From Candidatus Methylacidithermus pantelleriae (GTDB lineage: Bacteria > Verrucomicrobiota > Verrucomicrobiia > Methylacidiphilales > Methylacidiphilaceae), in the NCBI RefSeq assembly GCF_905250085.1, contig NZ_CAJNOB010000045.1, forward strand, positions 62,001 through 126,000: a DNA stretch of 64,000 nt, in the 5' to 3' direction. The notes below the pieces were generated by a model. The model was not told the DNA's origin. It saw only the letters and a list, made by a program, of their open reading frames with translations, and ran no database searches. This document shows, one piece after another, positions 42,461 through 48,845 of the stretch. Position 1 is the stretch's first letter; each line of letters opens with the position of its first letter. The translations under genes were made by a program, and so were the position numbers.

Positions 42461-43052
42461 AGCAAATGTCTTGCGTTCGCCACGGACGAGAATGCTCAAA
42501 AACTCTCCCAAAGCAAAGGCAAAGGCAAATTCGACCTTATGATTGCGTGTGGAACGATCGGTTTCCCTTTGAGGAGAGCCGGGAATTTCCCGTCCCTTAG
42601 CCAAAGAGCTTGCACAATGCCTCTCCGGGAAGGGAACCCTTGCGTCCTCTTCTTGATGGGTTGCGTTTTTTCGTTTGTGCAGGGGATTTCCTAAGCTTGC
42701 TCATGGGAGTCGGCAAAGAAGTGTGCGGCGGGTTCTTGCTAGGGGCGACTTTGCGAGAAAAGCGAAAGCTGTCCGGCTCTGTGCAACCAAAAAAGCGCCT
42801 TTCCGTGAAGTTAGGCTAGCTCCCCAAAAATACGCGTTCCCTCACCGGATTTTTTGCCACCCATTCAAGGGGTTTGCGAGGCTCAACGACAGGAAAAACC
42901 TTAGGTTCTGCGGATGGGTCGTAAGGTTTTTCCAAACGTCCGTTCCCCAAAAGTGGCTTTTCTAAGCTAGCTCCGGTAGTTGTTTTCTTTCGGAGAAAAG
43001 AAAGGGTTTCCTCGGACAAAAAAATAGCTCTGCCAAAGAAAGGCCGGCTTTC
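42461..43052. other. Intergenic region upstream of the second MFS gene
   Basis: No gene is supported in these 592 bases. On the minus strand, a weak GAAAG-CCGGC-CTTTC stem (about 43035-43050) follows the stop of the MBL-rhodanese gene, and TATTTTTTTG lies about 14 bases further. It is a possible but imperfect terminator. Confidence 0.4.
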
Positions 43053-44471
43053 CTAGTTTTGCGTTTTTTCCTCTCGAATAACCGGATAATTGCGAGTTTT
43101 CCACGCTTCCATGCCACCATCAACATTGGTTACACAAACAAACCCGGCGCGCTTGAGGAGACTTGTGGCAATACTGGACCGGTACCCACTTCCACAAACA
43201 ACCCAGTAAGAAATGTCCGGCGAAAGTTCATGGAGCCTTTTGGGTAATTGGCCGCACGGGATATGGCGTGCATGCGGTAGATGCCCATTGCACCATTCTG
43301 TGGGACTTCGGACATCTAAAATTTCGATTCCTTCTTTATTGAAATTGGGTAGTCGATCGGCAAGTTCCTCCACGCTTGCTTGTGGGACATGGGCCACTTG
43401 TCGGCCCGAGCTGATCCAAGTTCTGATTCCTCCTTCAAGGTAACCGACAATCCGATCGTGTCCCACCCGAACCAGAGCCGACCTTGCTTCGGTCAAGTCG
43501 CTCCCAGGTTCGCCTACTAAAAGGATGTTGGCCTCATAGGGGAGGATCCATCCAGCCCACAGGGAGAAAGCCGGGGAAAACCCAATGGACAAAGAACCTG
43601 GGATGTGAGCTCCTCCAAACGCTTCCGGAGTCCTTAGATCAACAATGACCGTGTTGTCCTCCTCTTGCAGGGAGACGAACTCTTCCAACGAGAGTGCTCT
43701 TGCTCCGGGGATCCCGTCTAGGATTGGAGGTCCTTCACTATTGAGCTTTTTCATCCTACGGTAATACTCGGGAAACTCGGGAAGCGTCGCCAGGATGTGA
43801 CGTACCGCTTCTTCCTCCGTTGCTTGGGTGAGAAAGGGGTTGCAAGAACGCTCATATCCAAGAGTGGAGACGGTGCGTTCTGCAAGGTCCGCCCCGCAGA
43901 GCGAACCGGCCCCATGGGCCGGGTACAAAAGCATCCCATCGGGGAGTCGAGCGATACGTTCTTTGAGGGTATGAACCAGTTCCCGAGCCAGTGTGTAAGT
44001 GCGTGCTTGTCCCAAAAGGTCTGGACGTCCTACAGACCCAGCGAATAAAAGATCACCGCTAAAAAGTGCTAAAGGTTGCCCGCAGCTTGTTGGATCGTAG
44101 AGAACAAAGCAAAGGTGCTCCGGCGTGTGGCCTGGGGTATGCAAGACTTCCAGGCGCAATTTTCCCAGCAAAAGCTGGTCTCCATCTCGGAGTTTTTGGT
44201 GGGGAAACTGGTACGAATATTCTTCCCCCTCATCATGCCCGCTTAGGCAAAGGAGGGCGCCCGTTTCCTTCGCCAGTTGCCGGGCACCACTTGCATAGTC
44301 AGCGTGGATATGAGTTTCGAGAACATAGCGGATCTTGGCCCCATGGTGGGCTGCCGATTTGTGGTAGATGGCCGTATCTCTTCTTGGATCGATAACTGCA
44401 GCGTCTTTTCCCGAAAAAATCACATAGGAAAAGGCGGCTAAACCAGGGGTTTCCATTTGTTCAATCTTCAT
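43053..44471 (-). CDS. MBL-fold hydrolase fused to two rhodanese domains (persulfide-dioxygenase-like)
   Basis: This is a 472-residue, three-domain protein. Residues 1-245 form a metallo-beta-lactamase fold: THIHADYASGA (HxHxD motif), HTPGHTPEHLCF and LFSGDLLFAGSVGRPDLLG match ETHE1-like persulfide dioxygenases with one Fe. Residues about 260-355 are a first rhodanese domain whose active loop reads LLVGEPGSD, without Cys. Residues about 365-465 are a second rhodanese domain with VVCGSGYRSS, so its catalytic Cys is present. The protein probably oxidises or transfers sulfane sulfur in the cytoplasm. It is monocistronic in appearance; the cupin/diiron/glpK cluster lies upstream. Confidence 0.92.
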   Translation of the reverse strand: MKIEQMETPGLAAFSYVIFSGKDAAVIDPRRDTAIYHKSAAHHGAKIRYVLETHIHADYASGARQLAKETGALLCLSGHDEGEEYSYQFPHQKLRDGDQLLLGKLRLEVLHTPGHTPEHLCFVLYDPTSCGQPLALFSGDLLFAGSVGRPDLLGQARTYTLARELVHTLKERIARLPDGMLLYPAHGAGSLCGADLAERTVSTLGYERSCNPFLTQATEEEAVRHILATLPEFPEYYRRMKKLNSEGPPILDGIPGARALSLEEFVSLQEEDNTVIVDLRTPEAFGGAHIPGSLSIGFSPAFSLWAGWILPYEANILLVGEPGSDLTEARSALVRVGHDRIVGYLEGGIRTWISSGRQVAHVPQASVEELADRLPNFNKEGIEILDVRSPTEWCNGHLPHARHIPCGQLPKRLHELSPDISYWVVCGSGYRSSIATSLLKRAGFVCVTNVDGGMEAWKTRNYPVIREEKTQN

Positions 44472-44774
44472 GGGGTTGTTTCACTATGGCTGCCTTCATT
44501 TTACTGAAAAACGAAACTCTACCCAACGGTGCTTACCTTTCGCCTGGGCCAACTCGAAAGAGGGAAGCTTCAAATAGCGAAAGAGCAAGTCTCCTTTCCT
44601 TCGGATAGTGTTGGTCGGAAGTTGGGTCGGATTGGAAGACATTACCAACATTTTTTCTCGGCCGACACGCTTTTAGGATTCTATGCGCTTTTGTTTTGAG
44701 AGCCTCGTTCCATGAAAAGCAGAATGCCGGCTGCGTGTGCAAGGAGCAGCCAGAGGCGATTTTGGGTTCTTTCT
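44472..44774. other. Short intergenic region
   Basis: These 303 bases lie between two co-oriented minus-strand genes (cupin, then the MBL-rhodanese gene). No gene or clear signal was seen. Confidence 0.45.
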
Positions 44775-45242
44775 TCAAAACAGATACCGGGCCGTCTCGG
44801 GATTTTCTTCCAGAAGCTTCCATTCTTCCTCGCTAACCGGTTGCGGCGGATCCCGATCAGCATCCACGGGGCATAAAAACCCAAAGGGTTCGTCCTTTTC
44901 GTTGATCCACCGGTGGGGAGTCCATGGAGGGACATAGAAAAGGTCCCATGGGCGAAGCTCCCACACCCGGGTTCCAGCCAGCGCTTTGCCCTCCCCCCGA
45001 AGGACAAAAAGCAGGTGAATATGAGCGTGCTTTTCGAGACTCGAAAAGGCCCCGGGGAGAAGTTCAAAATAACGCAGTTCAAAGCCGCATGGAACGTCCG
45101 GAGGTCCCCCGAGCCGGAATCTTTGAATGCCATGCCAACCCATCCCGCGAGCCGGGCCAATGTGAAACTTGTAAGGATGGGCCTGGATCCCTTTCCACGA
45201 ACCCGACTGCGGATCAAACGGAAAAAGCGAGGCTTGCGTCAT
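44775..45242 (-). CDS. Cupin-fold protein
   Basis: This is a 155-residue single cupin domain. SLEKHAHIHLLFVLRGEGKA carries the first cupin motif (HxHx3-4... with His pair and a Gly-rich turn), and DLFYVPPWTPHRWIN the second, with PxxxxH. The paired His residues would bind one metal. It starts at ATG 45242, 42 bp after the diiron-protein gene ends, on the same strand, so the two likely work together. The substrate is unknown. Confidence 0.85.
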   Translation of the reverse strand: MTQASLFPFDPQSGSWKGIQAHPYKFHIGPARGMGWHGIQRFRLGGPPDVPCGFELRYFELLPGAFSSLEKHAHIHLLFVLRGEGKALAGTRVWELRPWDLFYVPPWTPHRWINEKDEPFGFLCPVDADRDPPQPVSEEEWKLLEENPETARYLF

Positions 45243-45284
45243 AGGCCTGGAATCTTCCGTATGCCTTATGCGTCACCTTCCGGT

Positions 45285-46250
45285 TTACATCGCGTTTCCT
45301 GAAGCCTGCACATGGAGCTGATTAATTCGTTCTGCCAGGGGTTGGGGTAGCCCCGCACTGGTCAACCGAGCAATCCGAGAGGCTTGCAGTTGCGCTTGGA
45401 ATTGAAAGGTTCGGTCCATTCCCTTCCCCAAGGCTACTCCCTTTTCCCCACCACCTGCCAGGATGGCCAAGGCTTGTTGGATTTCCGTGGGAAGACCCGA
45501 AACTTCTTGAGCGAAAGCCATTCGCTCTTCCAAAGCTTCGACGAAACGTTCTCCACAAGCTGGGTCTGCCGCCAGACGGGCTCGTAGGCGTCCTATGCCG
45601 TAGGCAACATGCCGAGACTCGTCCTCCATGGCGTGAGAGAAAAGACACCGGCTTGCCTCATCGGGAGCCCATTTTTTGAGAAAACCAAAAAGATCGAGAA
45701 ACGTTCCCTCACCGAGCACATGAAGAAGGAAGGAAGCCTTGTCAAAATCCTCTTGGTGCAAAAGTCCCAGGAGGGAACTTTCCGTCTGAGGGTAGGCGCC
45801 TACAAAGCCGATGCCATTAAGAAACACACGCTTCACAAAAGCCTCTACATGGCGGGCCTCATCCACAATCTGTGTGGAAAGGAAAAGGACTGGTTCCAGA
45901 TAGTTGGGATGGATTCTCGGAAGAAACTTGGCGGGAAGGTACCAGGCAGCAAATTCCTGGTGGATCATCCAGGTAAGGATCTGGCAGAGCGCCCGTTCGA
46001 GGGCCTCCGGGACTCCCTTCCCCTTTTCCCACGGAACATCGAAAGTCGCGTTCCATTGTCCCACTTTGGCCTGCTCGTACAAGCGTTCCACTCCAGGAAA
46101 CCAGACCAAGGGCCGTTCGAGGACTTCAAAACCAAAAGGGACCCCTTTTTCCGGTGGCTCCAGCCCTCGAGGGGCTAGTCCCTGGGGAGGGACCGACAAG
46201 GGAGGATCCCCGAGGAGTTTGCTTAAGGCAAGTTGCCCTTCTTCTAGCAT
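45285..46250 (-). CDS. Ferritin-like diiron protein of unknown function
   Basis: About 321 residues from ATG 46250; a TTG at 46289 would add 13. The four-helix diiron motif is readable. MIHQEFAAWYLPA offers a Glu ligand on helix B, STQIVDEARHVEAFVKRV gives ExxH on the next helix, and HAMEDESRHVAYGIGRLR gives the second ExxH pair. LGEGTFLDLFGFLKK contributes the remaining Glu. This layout resembles R2-like and AurF-like N-oxygenases or RNR-like oxidases rather than storage ferritins. The neighbouring cupin suggests a small oxidative or tailoring step, but no substrate is evident. glpK is upstream and is separated by 89 bp. Confidence 0.82.
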   Translation of the reverse strand: MLEEGQLALSKLLGDPPLSVPPQGLAPRGLEPPEKGVPFGFEVLERPLVWFPGVERLYEQAKVGQWNATFDVPWEKGKGVPEALERALCQILTWMIHQEFAAWYLPAKFLPRIHPNYLEPVLFLSTQIVDEARHVEAFVKRVFLNGIGFVGAYPQTESSLLGLLHQEDFDKASFLLHVLGEGTFLDLFGFLKKWAPDEASRCLFSHAMEDESRHVAYGIGRLRARLAADPACGERFVEALEERMAFAQEVSGLPTEIQQALAILAGGGEKGVALGKGMDRTFQFQAQLQASRIARLTSAGLPQPLAERINQLHVQASGNAM

Positions 46251-46339
46251 GTTTAGAGTGAGCGTAGGGGAAGAAAGAGTTCTCTGCAACGCTATCGAAC
46301 CAATTTTTTCCTCGAGGCGCCGTCATAGGAAAAAACCGC

Positions 46340-47824
46340 TCATAGGGAGCTCGTGGTTTTCGCAAGAGCTTTCTTCCATTGGTCGCGCCTGTCGGCACGC
46401 TCTTGGGGGCTTACGGTTGGGTGGTACTCCGAAAAGGAACGGGGAAGGCTCTCCAACTCATCGTGGGTTTTCCATACCCCAGCCTCAAGTCCAGCGAGGT
46501 AAGCTACTCCGAGCCCAGTCAATTCCACCTCATTGGGACATTTGACGGGAATTCCTAAAACGTCGGTTTGTAGCTGCAGAAAGGAAGGGCTGCGTGCCAG
46601 CCCCCCATCGACCCACAGTTCCACAAGGGGTTTTTGGGTTTCTGCCTGCAAAGCTTCGCATACGTCAGCGATTTGCCAGGCAATCCCCTCCAGTGCAGCC
46701 CGCGCAATTTCCCGTTTGGTTGTCCTTGGGGTGAGCCCAAGCAGGATCCCAGTTGCTTCCGGATCCCAAGAGGGACTTCCTAGGCCGCAGAGGGAAGGGA
46801 CAAAGGTGACGGTTTCGGAATTGGGGGTTTGGGCGGCGCACTCCAGGATCTCCTCAACGGACTCAAACCACTTTACGTTATTGACTAGCCATTCCAAGAG
46901 AGCGCCAGCGACAAAAACCGGGCCTTCAAAAGCGTAGGTGCGCTCCTGGCCGGTGGCCCAAGCGATAGTGGTGAGGAGGCCTTGCGAAGCAATAGACAAC
47001 CGATCCTCGCGGTTTTGAAGAACGAAGGCTCCCGTACCGTAGGTACATTTGGTGTCGCCGAGATTCCAAGCACGGTGTCCAAAAAGCGAAGCTTGCTGGT
47101 CTCCGAGAATCCCCAAAATCGGGACTCCTCGTATGCAGGCAGGCTCAATCGCTTCGCCTATGTAACCTTGAGAGGGACAAAGTCTCGGGAGAAGAGAAGG
47201 GGGCACATCAAAAAGAGCCAGGAGCTGGGGATCCCACGAGCCCTGCCGAATATTAAGAAGGAGAGTTCGAGAGGCATTACTAACGTCGCTCTTGTGACAG
47301 TGTCCTTGCGTTATATTCCAGATCAACCACGAGTCCACGGTCCCGGCGGCAAGGTCGCCCCGCAAGGCCGCTTCCCTCCACTGCGGGTGCTGGGCCAGGA
47401 GCCACATCAATTTTGGAGCGGAAAAGTACGGATCTAAGAAAAGCCCAGTCTTTTCGCGCAAAGAGGGTAGATCATGCCGTGAAGAAAGTTCTTGGCAGAG
47501 TCGCGCCGAACGACGGTCTTGCCACACGATGGCTGGAGAGAGGGCGCGCCCCGAGCTCCGCTCCCAGAGAACAATCGTTTCCCTTTGGTTGGCGATGCCA
47601 ATCCCACGGATTTCACCAGCACAAATCTTGGCGCGAGAAACTACGTCTTCGATACACTCTTTTGGAGTGAACCATAGTTCTTCCGGGTCCTGTTCTACCC
47701 ATCCTGTCTTGGGAGTAGAAACCTCCAGGGGTCTTTGCGAGAACGCACAGACCCTCCCATCGGGTGCTACGAGAAGCGCGCGAGCACTGCCCGTCCCGAT
47801 GTCCAGTGCCAGAATGTACCCCAT
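46340..47824 (-). CDS. glpK: Glycerol kinase
   Basis: This 494-residue FGGY-family kinase makes glycerol-3-phosphate from glycerol and ATP. ALDIGTGSARALLVAPDG (N-terminal phosphate loop), GIANQRETIVLWERSSG, DRRSARLCQEL and GILGDQQASLFGHRAWNLGD with its catalytic Asp lie in order. CTYGTGAFVLQN and EGIAWQIADVCEAL follow, with WVDGGLARSPSFLQLQTDVL. ATG 47824 matches the family N-terminus (MGYILALDIGT); a TTG at 47839 is an alternative. No glpF or glpD is next to it in the window. The diiron/cupin pair follows on the same strand. Confidence 0.95.
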   Translation of the reverse strand: MGYILALDIGTGSARALLVAPDGRVCAFSQRPLEVSTPKTGWVEQDPEELWFTPKECIEDVVSRAKICAGEIRGIGIANQRETIVLWERSSGRALSPAIVWQDRRSARLCQELSSRHDLPSLREKTGLFLDPYFSAPKLMWLLAQHPQWREAALRGDLAAGTVDSWLIWNITQGHCHKSDVSNASRTLLLNIRQGSWDPQLLALFDVPPSLLPRLCPSQGYIGEAIEPACIRGVPILGILGDQQASLFGHRAWNLGDTKCTYGTGAFVLQNREDRLSIASQGLLTTIAWATGQERTYAFEGPVFVAGALLEWLVNNVKWFESVEEILECAAQTPNSETVTFVPSLCGLGSPSWDPEATGILLGLTPRTTKREIARAALEGIAWQIADVCEALQAETQKPLVELWVDGGLARSPSFLQLQTDVLGIPVKCPNEVELTGLGVAYLAGLEAGVWKTHDELESLPRSFSEYHPTVSPQERADRRDQWKKALAKTTSSL

Positions 47825-48845
47825 GAGGCTGTTATTCAAGAACCGGGGCCAGTGCTTTCTTATTCAGGCAAGGTCTTTGCTGGCGGAAAAGGTTTTTTTA
47901 GACACTTTTTCACGCAAAAAATCTTTTCCTGATTGATCCGCAAACAACCTGCGATGAAGTCGCAGGTTTTCTTGTAGAGCGCAGAGATAGCTGACCTTGC
48001 CCATCCTTCCAACATCAAGAGTGTTTACAGCCGGTCTTGGCAAAGCCGCAGACTTCCCAATCCGGGTGATCTTCCGACTTGCGTTGACGTCGCTATGTGC
48101 CCGGAGGCGACGGTCAGCACACTCCCAGCCATGTCGCAAGCGTTTCCTTGGACCTCCACGACACAAATAGCTCTGGCTCGTGGAGGCTGGATCGACGTAG
48201 TCGACCGCGATGGCCGCGGCGCTTGCCTTCTCCTCGACGAACGACGGCAGCTGCCGCCAGGCTGAGCGATGCTAACGGGCGCACACGCGTTTGGCGGCTT
48301 TGATCTGGTCGCAGATGTGCGTGAGGTCTTCCATCCCGGTCCTGGCGATCCGCGCCTCAGTCGCGGCCTGGACGATGGCTCGAATCGTTTCGCAGCTCAT
48401 GTGCCGAACGCGCCGCATGTTTTTGGCGGAGACCTGCCGGAACTTCTGTCTAGCGCTCTGGCTGCCCTTGGACGGAAGACGACAACGCGGAGCAAGGGAG
48501 CAGTCACGGTTGTCGCGCACCTTTTCCGCCGTCAAAGATTTTGCCTGTGCTTATGCCGGCAAAATTCTTTTGCCGGACACCCATGCCTAGCATGGGGCCG
48601 GATGCCCGAGCCTGCCTATCTTCCGTTTCGACGACGAGGCTGGGATACCACGTTCTTTCGCGAAAGACCCATCCCGGTCCCTTCGGCCGACTGGAGGCAA
48701 AGATCTGCTTTGAGTAGTCGCGTAGACGCAGCGCGACGGTGATGCGCCGTCCATCAATACTGTAGAGTCTTTTCGGTCTCATCGTAACGCTACCGATGTC
48801 CTTTCCTTTTGACGGTCGCCCAAGCACTGTGGGAGAAGAAGAGTC
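47825..48845. other. Region between glpK and glk, mostly TnpB debris
   Basis: Apart from the TnpB pseudogene at 47990-48827 nothing is recognised. The two flanking sugar/glycerol kinase genes are divergent, so their promoters must lie near the ends of this stretch. Confidence 0.5.
47990..48827 (-). pseudogene. tnpB: TnpB pseudogene between glpK and glk
   Basis: Three frames follow each other. First, RPKRLYSIDGRRITVALRLR then DYSKQIFASSRPKGPGWVFR and WYPSLVVETEDRQ (48827-48504). Second, QSARQKFRQVSAKNMRRVRH, then RIARTGMEDLTHICDQIKAA with the RuvC-II Glu in GMEDL (48535-48272). Third, RHGWECADRRLRAHSDVNAS (48130-48055), the zinc-ribbon and RuvC-III Asp region with HSDVNAS. The RuvC-I site, normally GVDxG, reads LGMGVRQKN, so that Asp is lost even without the frameshifts. 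Its nucleotide divergence looks lower than that of the other TnpB remnants. Confidence 0.8.

Follow-up and report, generated by a model that had tools for sequence, protein, structure and literature searches.

A diiron oxygenase-like gene and a methylsulfurylase-related cupin gene, neighbors in a few bacteria only distantly related to one another, may cooperate in sulfur metabolism

The window analyzed here, a stretch of 64,000 nucleotides from Candidatus Methylacidithermus pantelleriae, carries on its minus strand four genes in the order FGGY kinase, diiron protein, cupin and metallo-beta-lactamase/rhodanese protein. The kinase gene (46340–47839, start codon provisional) is of glycerol-kinase type, its product scoring above the cut-off of the NCBIfam GlpK subfamily model (532 vs 498 bits) and below that of TIGR01311 (553 vs 590 bits). 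It is the upstream neighbor of a pair formed by the gene for a predicted diiron oxygenase-like protein with ferritin-like fold (45285–46250, minus strand, 321 amino acids) and, 42 bp downstream of it, the gene for a single-domain cupin (44775–45242, minus strand, 155 amino acids; Cupin_2, E 8.9e-13). The original prediction had described a ferritin-like and a single-cupin gene adjoining at 42 bp behind a glycerol kinase gene, and the minus-strand open reading frames as well as the Cupin_2 match bear this out; the end point it gave for the diiron gene, 46250, is the ATG start. A TTG at 46289 offers an alternative start (45285–46289, minus strand, 334 amino acids). Sequence comparison makes the ATG the likelier of the two, as the entire open frame of a relative in genome G321 (63% identical) comprises 322 residues and begins opposite residue 12–13 of the long form. 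The next same-strand gene, 303 bp past the cupin, encodes a protein of 472 amino acids with a metallo-beta-lactamase and two rhodanese domains (43053–44471, minus strand; Lactamase_B 3.3e-14, Rhodanese 6.9e-30 in two stretches) and is a possible functional neighbor of the pair. Its domain combination might represent a persulfide-handling fusion. A scan of 43000–48200 for promoters and terminators found sites no more numerous than in shuffled sequences, and the G+C content of the two genes (0.55 and 0.56) does not differ from that of the window (0.55).

Does the diiron protein possess a complete metal site? It contains two ExxH pairs, E144-ARH147 and E224-SRH227 (numbering of the long form; minus 13 for the ATG form). 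A genome scan with this protein yielded 494 relatives, the best 80 of which were taken as loci L015–L094, with L015–L067 as the closer ones. L067, where the match falls into two pieces, and the distant L068–L094 did not enter the diiron alignment, the rows of which begin near the match start and place the N-terminus outside its scope. Each of the six ligands is present in 60 of its 61 rows, the remaining one having a gap; L061, the frame of which is cut after 76 codons, was kept in the 61-row alignment and the tree and is absent from the alignment A2. In A2 the ligand set E112, E144, H147, E194, E224 and H227 (long form) is invariant in 60 of 60 rows, far beyond chance, confirming the ferritin-like protein with two ExxH pairs of the original prediction.

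Profile searches place this protein near several known diiron enzymes. A Pfam search with the window protein gave no match and the NCBIfam model for R2lox stayed below threshold (1.6e-8; best 34.1 bits vs a cut-off of 194), while Pfam AurF matches 47 of the 60 relatives at E 0.01 and a profile of the family finds the VlmB homologue 6d9f at 1.3e-10. In VIA-align comparisons an AlphaFold2 model built on A2 (pLDDT 90.9, pTM 0.90) aligned with the azoxy synthase VlmB (8wvr) with a Z of 21.6 (rmsd 3.4, 264 aligned residues, 19% identity), with 6d9f at 21.3, with R2lox at about 21 (17–18% identity) and with aldehyde-deformylating oxygenase at 20.4; Z differences under 1 being ties, VlmB and R2lox are tied. 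Foldseek ranked R2lox first (1.3e-5), 6d9f 30th and 8wvr 34th. According to the model, the window protein has the fold of O2-activating diiron enzymes, and by sequence it appears to be an oxygenase-like member of an unnamed family. The fold leaves the substrate undecided, since R2lox and aldehyde-deformylating oxygenase lie within about 1 Z of VlmB and Foldseek prefers R2lox. A literature search of open-licence PMC articles returned, among the matches listed, no paper naming this diiron family or the diiron-cupin pair.

Given the similarity to VlmB, it could be imagined that the pair belongs to a nitrogen-oxidizing specialized pathway, like the VlmB/AurF N-oxygenases and the cupin-containing peptide or N-N bond systems. 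In addition to the ferritin-like fold, the alignment over 264 residues, the AurF matches of its relatives and the 6d9f match of the family profile, the window protein shares with these enzymes six carboxylate/histidine ligands, compared as a set. Moreover, the excerpt of PMC2922099 drawn on here describes cupin-diiron fusions and MetRS-cupin systems in a peptide-ligase context, in which a cupin likewise occurs together with a diiron oxygenase; their diiron domains, however, are of heme-oxygenase type and thus have another fold. The window protein also differs from VlmB and AurF by its low identity, the absence of a Pfam match and its surroundings, where no genes of nitrogen chemistry were seen: the identified neighbors in the window and in genomes G350, G352 and G321 are neither carrier proteins nor peptide ligases, and the four window genes tested against Pfam include no peptide ligase or MetRS paralogue, the remainder of 40–50 kb having been read as open reading frames. 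As R2lox and aldehyde-deformylating oxygenase also come so close to VlmB in Z and R2lox leads in Foldseek, we regard a role in nitrogen oxidation as distinctly improbable.

How widely do the two genes occur together? A cupin gene adjoins the diiron gene in one of the 80 wide-scan loci (L015; best 80 of 494 relatives). A search of the phylum of L015 covered 43 genomes, 13 of which have a diiron match, strong in 10 genomes (11 loci). The cupin lies directly downstream in 4 of these 11 strong loci, namely in G321, G350, the second copy of G364, and G365. The cupins of G321 and G350, which belong to another phylum than the window, are 58 and 63% identical to the window cupin. The second G364 copy and G365 combine a divergent cupin (34%) with a divergent diiron gene, and as their cupins are 98% alike they represent one event. 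On the same strand the two genes are separated by 42 bp in the window, 9 bp in G321, 10 bp in G350 and 13 bp each in G364 and G365, distances that depend on the start codon picked. On the diiron tree the window, L015, G350 and G352 group together (support 100/98), and the divergent pair is found elsewhere; adjacency, with four labelled rows, needs two changes on this tree, from which G365 is absent, its diiron frame being in two pieces. The end branch of the window is flagged as long. The diiron-cupin adjacency recurs in two diiron lineages and is conserved, but narrowly.

Genomes with only one part of the arrangement are found as well. In G352 the diiron gene has neither a cupin nor an OsmC nor a CoA-binding neighbor, and G322 contains a cupin of the same subfamily (59%) unlinked to the diiron gene, as well as a second cupin copy at 45%. 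When 16 genomes with diiron loci were tested for the cupin, two had a close match (G321 and G322, 58–59%), three a weak one and 11 none. All these neighbor counts derive from tblastn with chosen queries, by which other conserved neighbors may be missed, and simple ORF picking is unreliable in GC-rich loci. Twelve family mates of the window genome match neither the diiron gene nor the cupin, the diiron protein is matched in two of the 288 host-phylum genomes sampled, the second at 29%, and the pair may have been transferred into the window genome. Among plasmids, eight records have distant diiron matches and two have the cupin. The idea of a conserved pair held insofar as the adjacency turns up at two places on the diiron tree, although its range is narrow; the combination of unconserved neighbors and missing ligands was not encountered, the metal-binding residues being kept in both proteins. 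The proposed link with glpK did not hold, the kinase gene not being a conserved neighbor: as a functional partner it was rejected after matches in 0 of the 80 loci (best of 494) and in none of the phylum loci, with flanks of mostly 1.5–10 kb.

Such a patchy distribution could also mean that the two proteins share no reaction and meet in lineage-specific operons. The diiron protein might then be a stress protein or an R2lox-like oxidase of variant type, with the cupin serving as a sensor or an isomerase. R2lox is characterized by a Tyr-Val crosslink and a bound long-chain ligand. Its fold and its ExxH motifs align with those of the window protein, it is the top hit in Foldseek, its NCBIfam model gives weak matches, and 79 of the 80 family loci (best of 494) are without an adjoining cupin. 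Nevertheless, the 17–18% identity in VIA-align and the failed equivalog score in NCBIfam set the window protein apart from R2lox, and the gene order was found in two diiron lineages with cupins just 34% alike, which counts against this view. We consider this explanation rather unlikely.

The surroundings of the closest relatives may point to sulfur. In the neighbor comparison the window subclade has four members: the window, G321, G350 and G352. The genes in G350 are arranged in the order CysM-like, SerK/SbnI-like, rhodanese, an unknown gene, diiron, cupin, JAB and Rrf2, the Rrf2 protein being CymR-like with a score under that model's cut-off. In G352 a rhodanese gene lies 33 bp upstream of the diiron gene and genes for a DUF4395 protein and a thioredoxin follow downstream, and in G321 DUF4395 and thioredoxin genes are located upstream of the pair. 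Including the window, genes for sulfurtransferases, thioredoxin or cysteine synthesis are thus near all four subclade loci, as a raw count. Around the divergent pair loci of G364 and G365 no sulfur gene was seen.

In the family at large, 31 of the 80 loci (best of 494) show a TusA-like match preceding the diiron gene on its N-terminal side. This stretch reads as a single frame with the diiron gene in L021, L034 and L050, and in L034, the one compared with Pfam, it gives a match below gathering (E 6.7e-5). All 31 TusA-linked loci match an Rv1680-type binding protein, 27 a FadE16-like protein and seven SelD, the names Rv1680-type and FadE16-like resting on below-cut-off matches. L034:2734-6978 and its like (31 of 80, best of 494), with TusA-like/diiron, Rv1680-type and FadE16-like flavoprotein genes, possibly form a sulfur/selenium cluster of their own. 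A role for selenium in the window genome was rejected, as its SelD match is below cut-off (40.7 vs 125 bits) and the SelD link of the TusA clade does not carry over. Further loci show other arrangements. A small protein without a Pfam family was matched in 18 and a ferredoxin in 15 of the 80 loci (best of 494); in L049:4896-6867 and similar actinobacterial loci the diiron gene is followed by this small protein and a 4Fe-4S ferredoxin, a possible electron donor. In L163:8430-10605 and five alike, six of the 11 strong phylum loci, the diiron gene is flanked by OsmC on its upstream side and by a CoA-binding protein on its downstream side. L045:4851-7126 and L051:4773-7046 contain tandem diiron-family genes, the second copy in L045 being devoid of the usual ExxH motifs, which suggests an inactive partner subunit.

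The best matches of the window cupin in the PDB are 3jzv (Rru_A2000, 6e-22), 3kgz (1e-21) and 3ibm (2e-21), with identities of 41% to 3jzv (over 100 compared residues) and of 34% to 3kgz. Rru_A2000 we take to be the methylsulfurylase of R. rubrum, and 3kgz is presumably that of R. palustris. Window-type cupins, i.e., those of the window, G321, G350 and G322, are mutually 56–65% alike. Their identity to 3jzv and 3kgz is 34–46%, compared to 52–59% for the cupins of six relatives that have a RuBisCO-like protein (RLP). Like the methylthioxylulose-5-phosphate (MTXu-5P) methylsulfurylase, the window cupin consists of a single Cupin_2 domain with an HxHxH motif plus a further histidine and RYFE and FLC motifs. 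The window-type cupins retain the metal-binding H72, H74, H76 and H110 as well as C124 of FLC, and 23 of the 37 residues invariant in eight methylsulfurylase-group sequences (the six relatives and the two solved proteins) are kept in all four. In contrast, the motif around the fourth histidine is changed from TWHQFRA to TPHRWIN. By identities and motifs the window cupin would form a sister subfamily of the methylsulfurylase. Its chemistry is probably akin to that of the latter, with a substrate that is shifted or a different one. In the part of PMC5893883 consulted, methylsulfurylase acts in the MTA-isoprenoid shunt of R. rubrum and R. palustris, and the claim that the combination of families fits no nameable pathway finds no support in this respect.

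Could the cupin simply be the methylsulfurylase of this genome? The window genome G000 (2,459,655 bases, 71 contigs) encodes on contig C12 MtnA (392 bits, over cut-off), MtnK (L112:9026-10285; 384 vs a cut-off of 275 bits) and an RLP of 392 amino acids (L100:8135-9313; best PDB match 3qfw, 1.3e-66) that falls short of both MtnW thresholds (221 vs 409 and 179 vs 514 bits). On this contig MtnA is located 5.5 kb upstream of the RLP gene and MtnK beyond it. An excerpt of PMC8170126 attributes to the methanotroph 'Ca. Methylacidithermus pantelleriae' PQ17 RuBisCO, one RuBisCO-like protein and the methanethiol oxidase gene mtoX. Since a match to ARD/MtnD was found in 0 of the 13 genomes of the family, the window genome probably has no complete classical methionine salvage pathway, and the MTA-isoprenoid shunt is plausible in G000. 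In this setting the cupin might act as MTXu-5P methylsulfurylase of the shunt together with the distant RLP, its diiron neighbor handling methanethiol or methylthio-glutathione or being incidental. The structural matches named above fit this proposal, no second cupin of like similarity was found in G000, and cupin and strong RLP (204 bits or more) occur in the same 7 of 40 relatives (in 11 further genomes the match does not exceed 77 bits, a level expected of RuBisCO), with the cupin gene directly after the RLP gene in G030. However, G030 is one of four relatives the cupin loci of which were read, six of the seven co-occurring genomes belong to one family, and in G000 itself cupin and RLP genes are on separate contigs, C45 and C12, the cupin being paired with the diiron gene instead. 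G321 and G322, which have window-type cupins, contain only a distant RLP type (26% identical to that of G000). MtnA, present in 9 of 9 genomes tested including the cupin-less G323, does not discriminate, and its neighbors in G321 and G322 show no link to the diiron-cupin pair. As the lower identity and the altered fourth-histidine motif also speak against it, we judge a plain shunt enzyme to be somewhat unlikely.

Tentatively, and with a little less than even confidence, we favor the two genes as a two-gene sulfur-salvage module. The diiron and cupin genes would be co-transcribed; the cupin would act on a small organosulfur molecule, probably one carrying a methylthio group, and release its sulfur group onto a thiol; the diiron enzyme would use O2 to oxidize or demethylate the resulting sulfur product; and rhodanese, thioredoxin or cysteine synthase could then receive the sulfur in the form of sulfide or persulfide. 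Consistent with such a module are the metal-binding histidines and the cysteine that the cupin shares with the C-S-cleaving methylsulfurylase group, the complete diiron ligands in the fold of O2-activating enzymes, the same-strand adjacency with short gaps in two diiron lineages, the genes for sulfur transfer, thiol redox or cysteine synthesis found close to each of the four subclade loci, and the TusA-like stretch beside the diiron gene in 31 of the 80 wide-scan loci. Against it count the low number of loci with an adjoining cupin, with G364 and G365 being one event and having no sulfur genes in sight, and G352, which has sulfur neighbors and yet no adjoining cupin. The six OsmC/CoA-binding loci constitute a third context, the end branch of the window is long, and for those solved diiron relatives whose substrate is established, the target is nitrogen or an aldehyde. 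Furthermore, mtoX is, according to the same excerpt of PMC8170126, already present in the presumed host. The exact reaction of the pair is a guess. A specific version, which we consider a long shot, is an O2-dependent salvage in which the cupin, as a new subfamily, moves the methylthio group from a methylthio-sugar phosphate to a thiol and the diiron protein as S-demethylase generates formaldehyde and (per)sulfide to supply a rhodanese or cysteine synthase; in the TusA-linked relatives, the substrates of a similar reaction would be sulfur or selenium carriers.

In organisms that lack MtnD, the route by which methylthio groups stemming from the use of S-adenosylmethionine re-enter the sulfur pool is understood only in part. 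For the shunt of R. rubrum and R. palustris, release of methanethiol from methylthio-glutathione, by the gamma-glutamyl cycle or a putative reductase, is merely proposed in the portion of PMC5893883 used here. A conserved diiron-cupin pair that in its closest relatives lies near sulfur genes is a concrete candidate for this return. Its diiron family, for which no Pfam entry suits the window protein, also has TusA-linked members, and selenophosphate synthetase genes lie near some of these. The two genes occur as neighbors in a small number of bacteria that are distant from each other, and their products may cooperate in sulfur metabolism.
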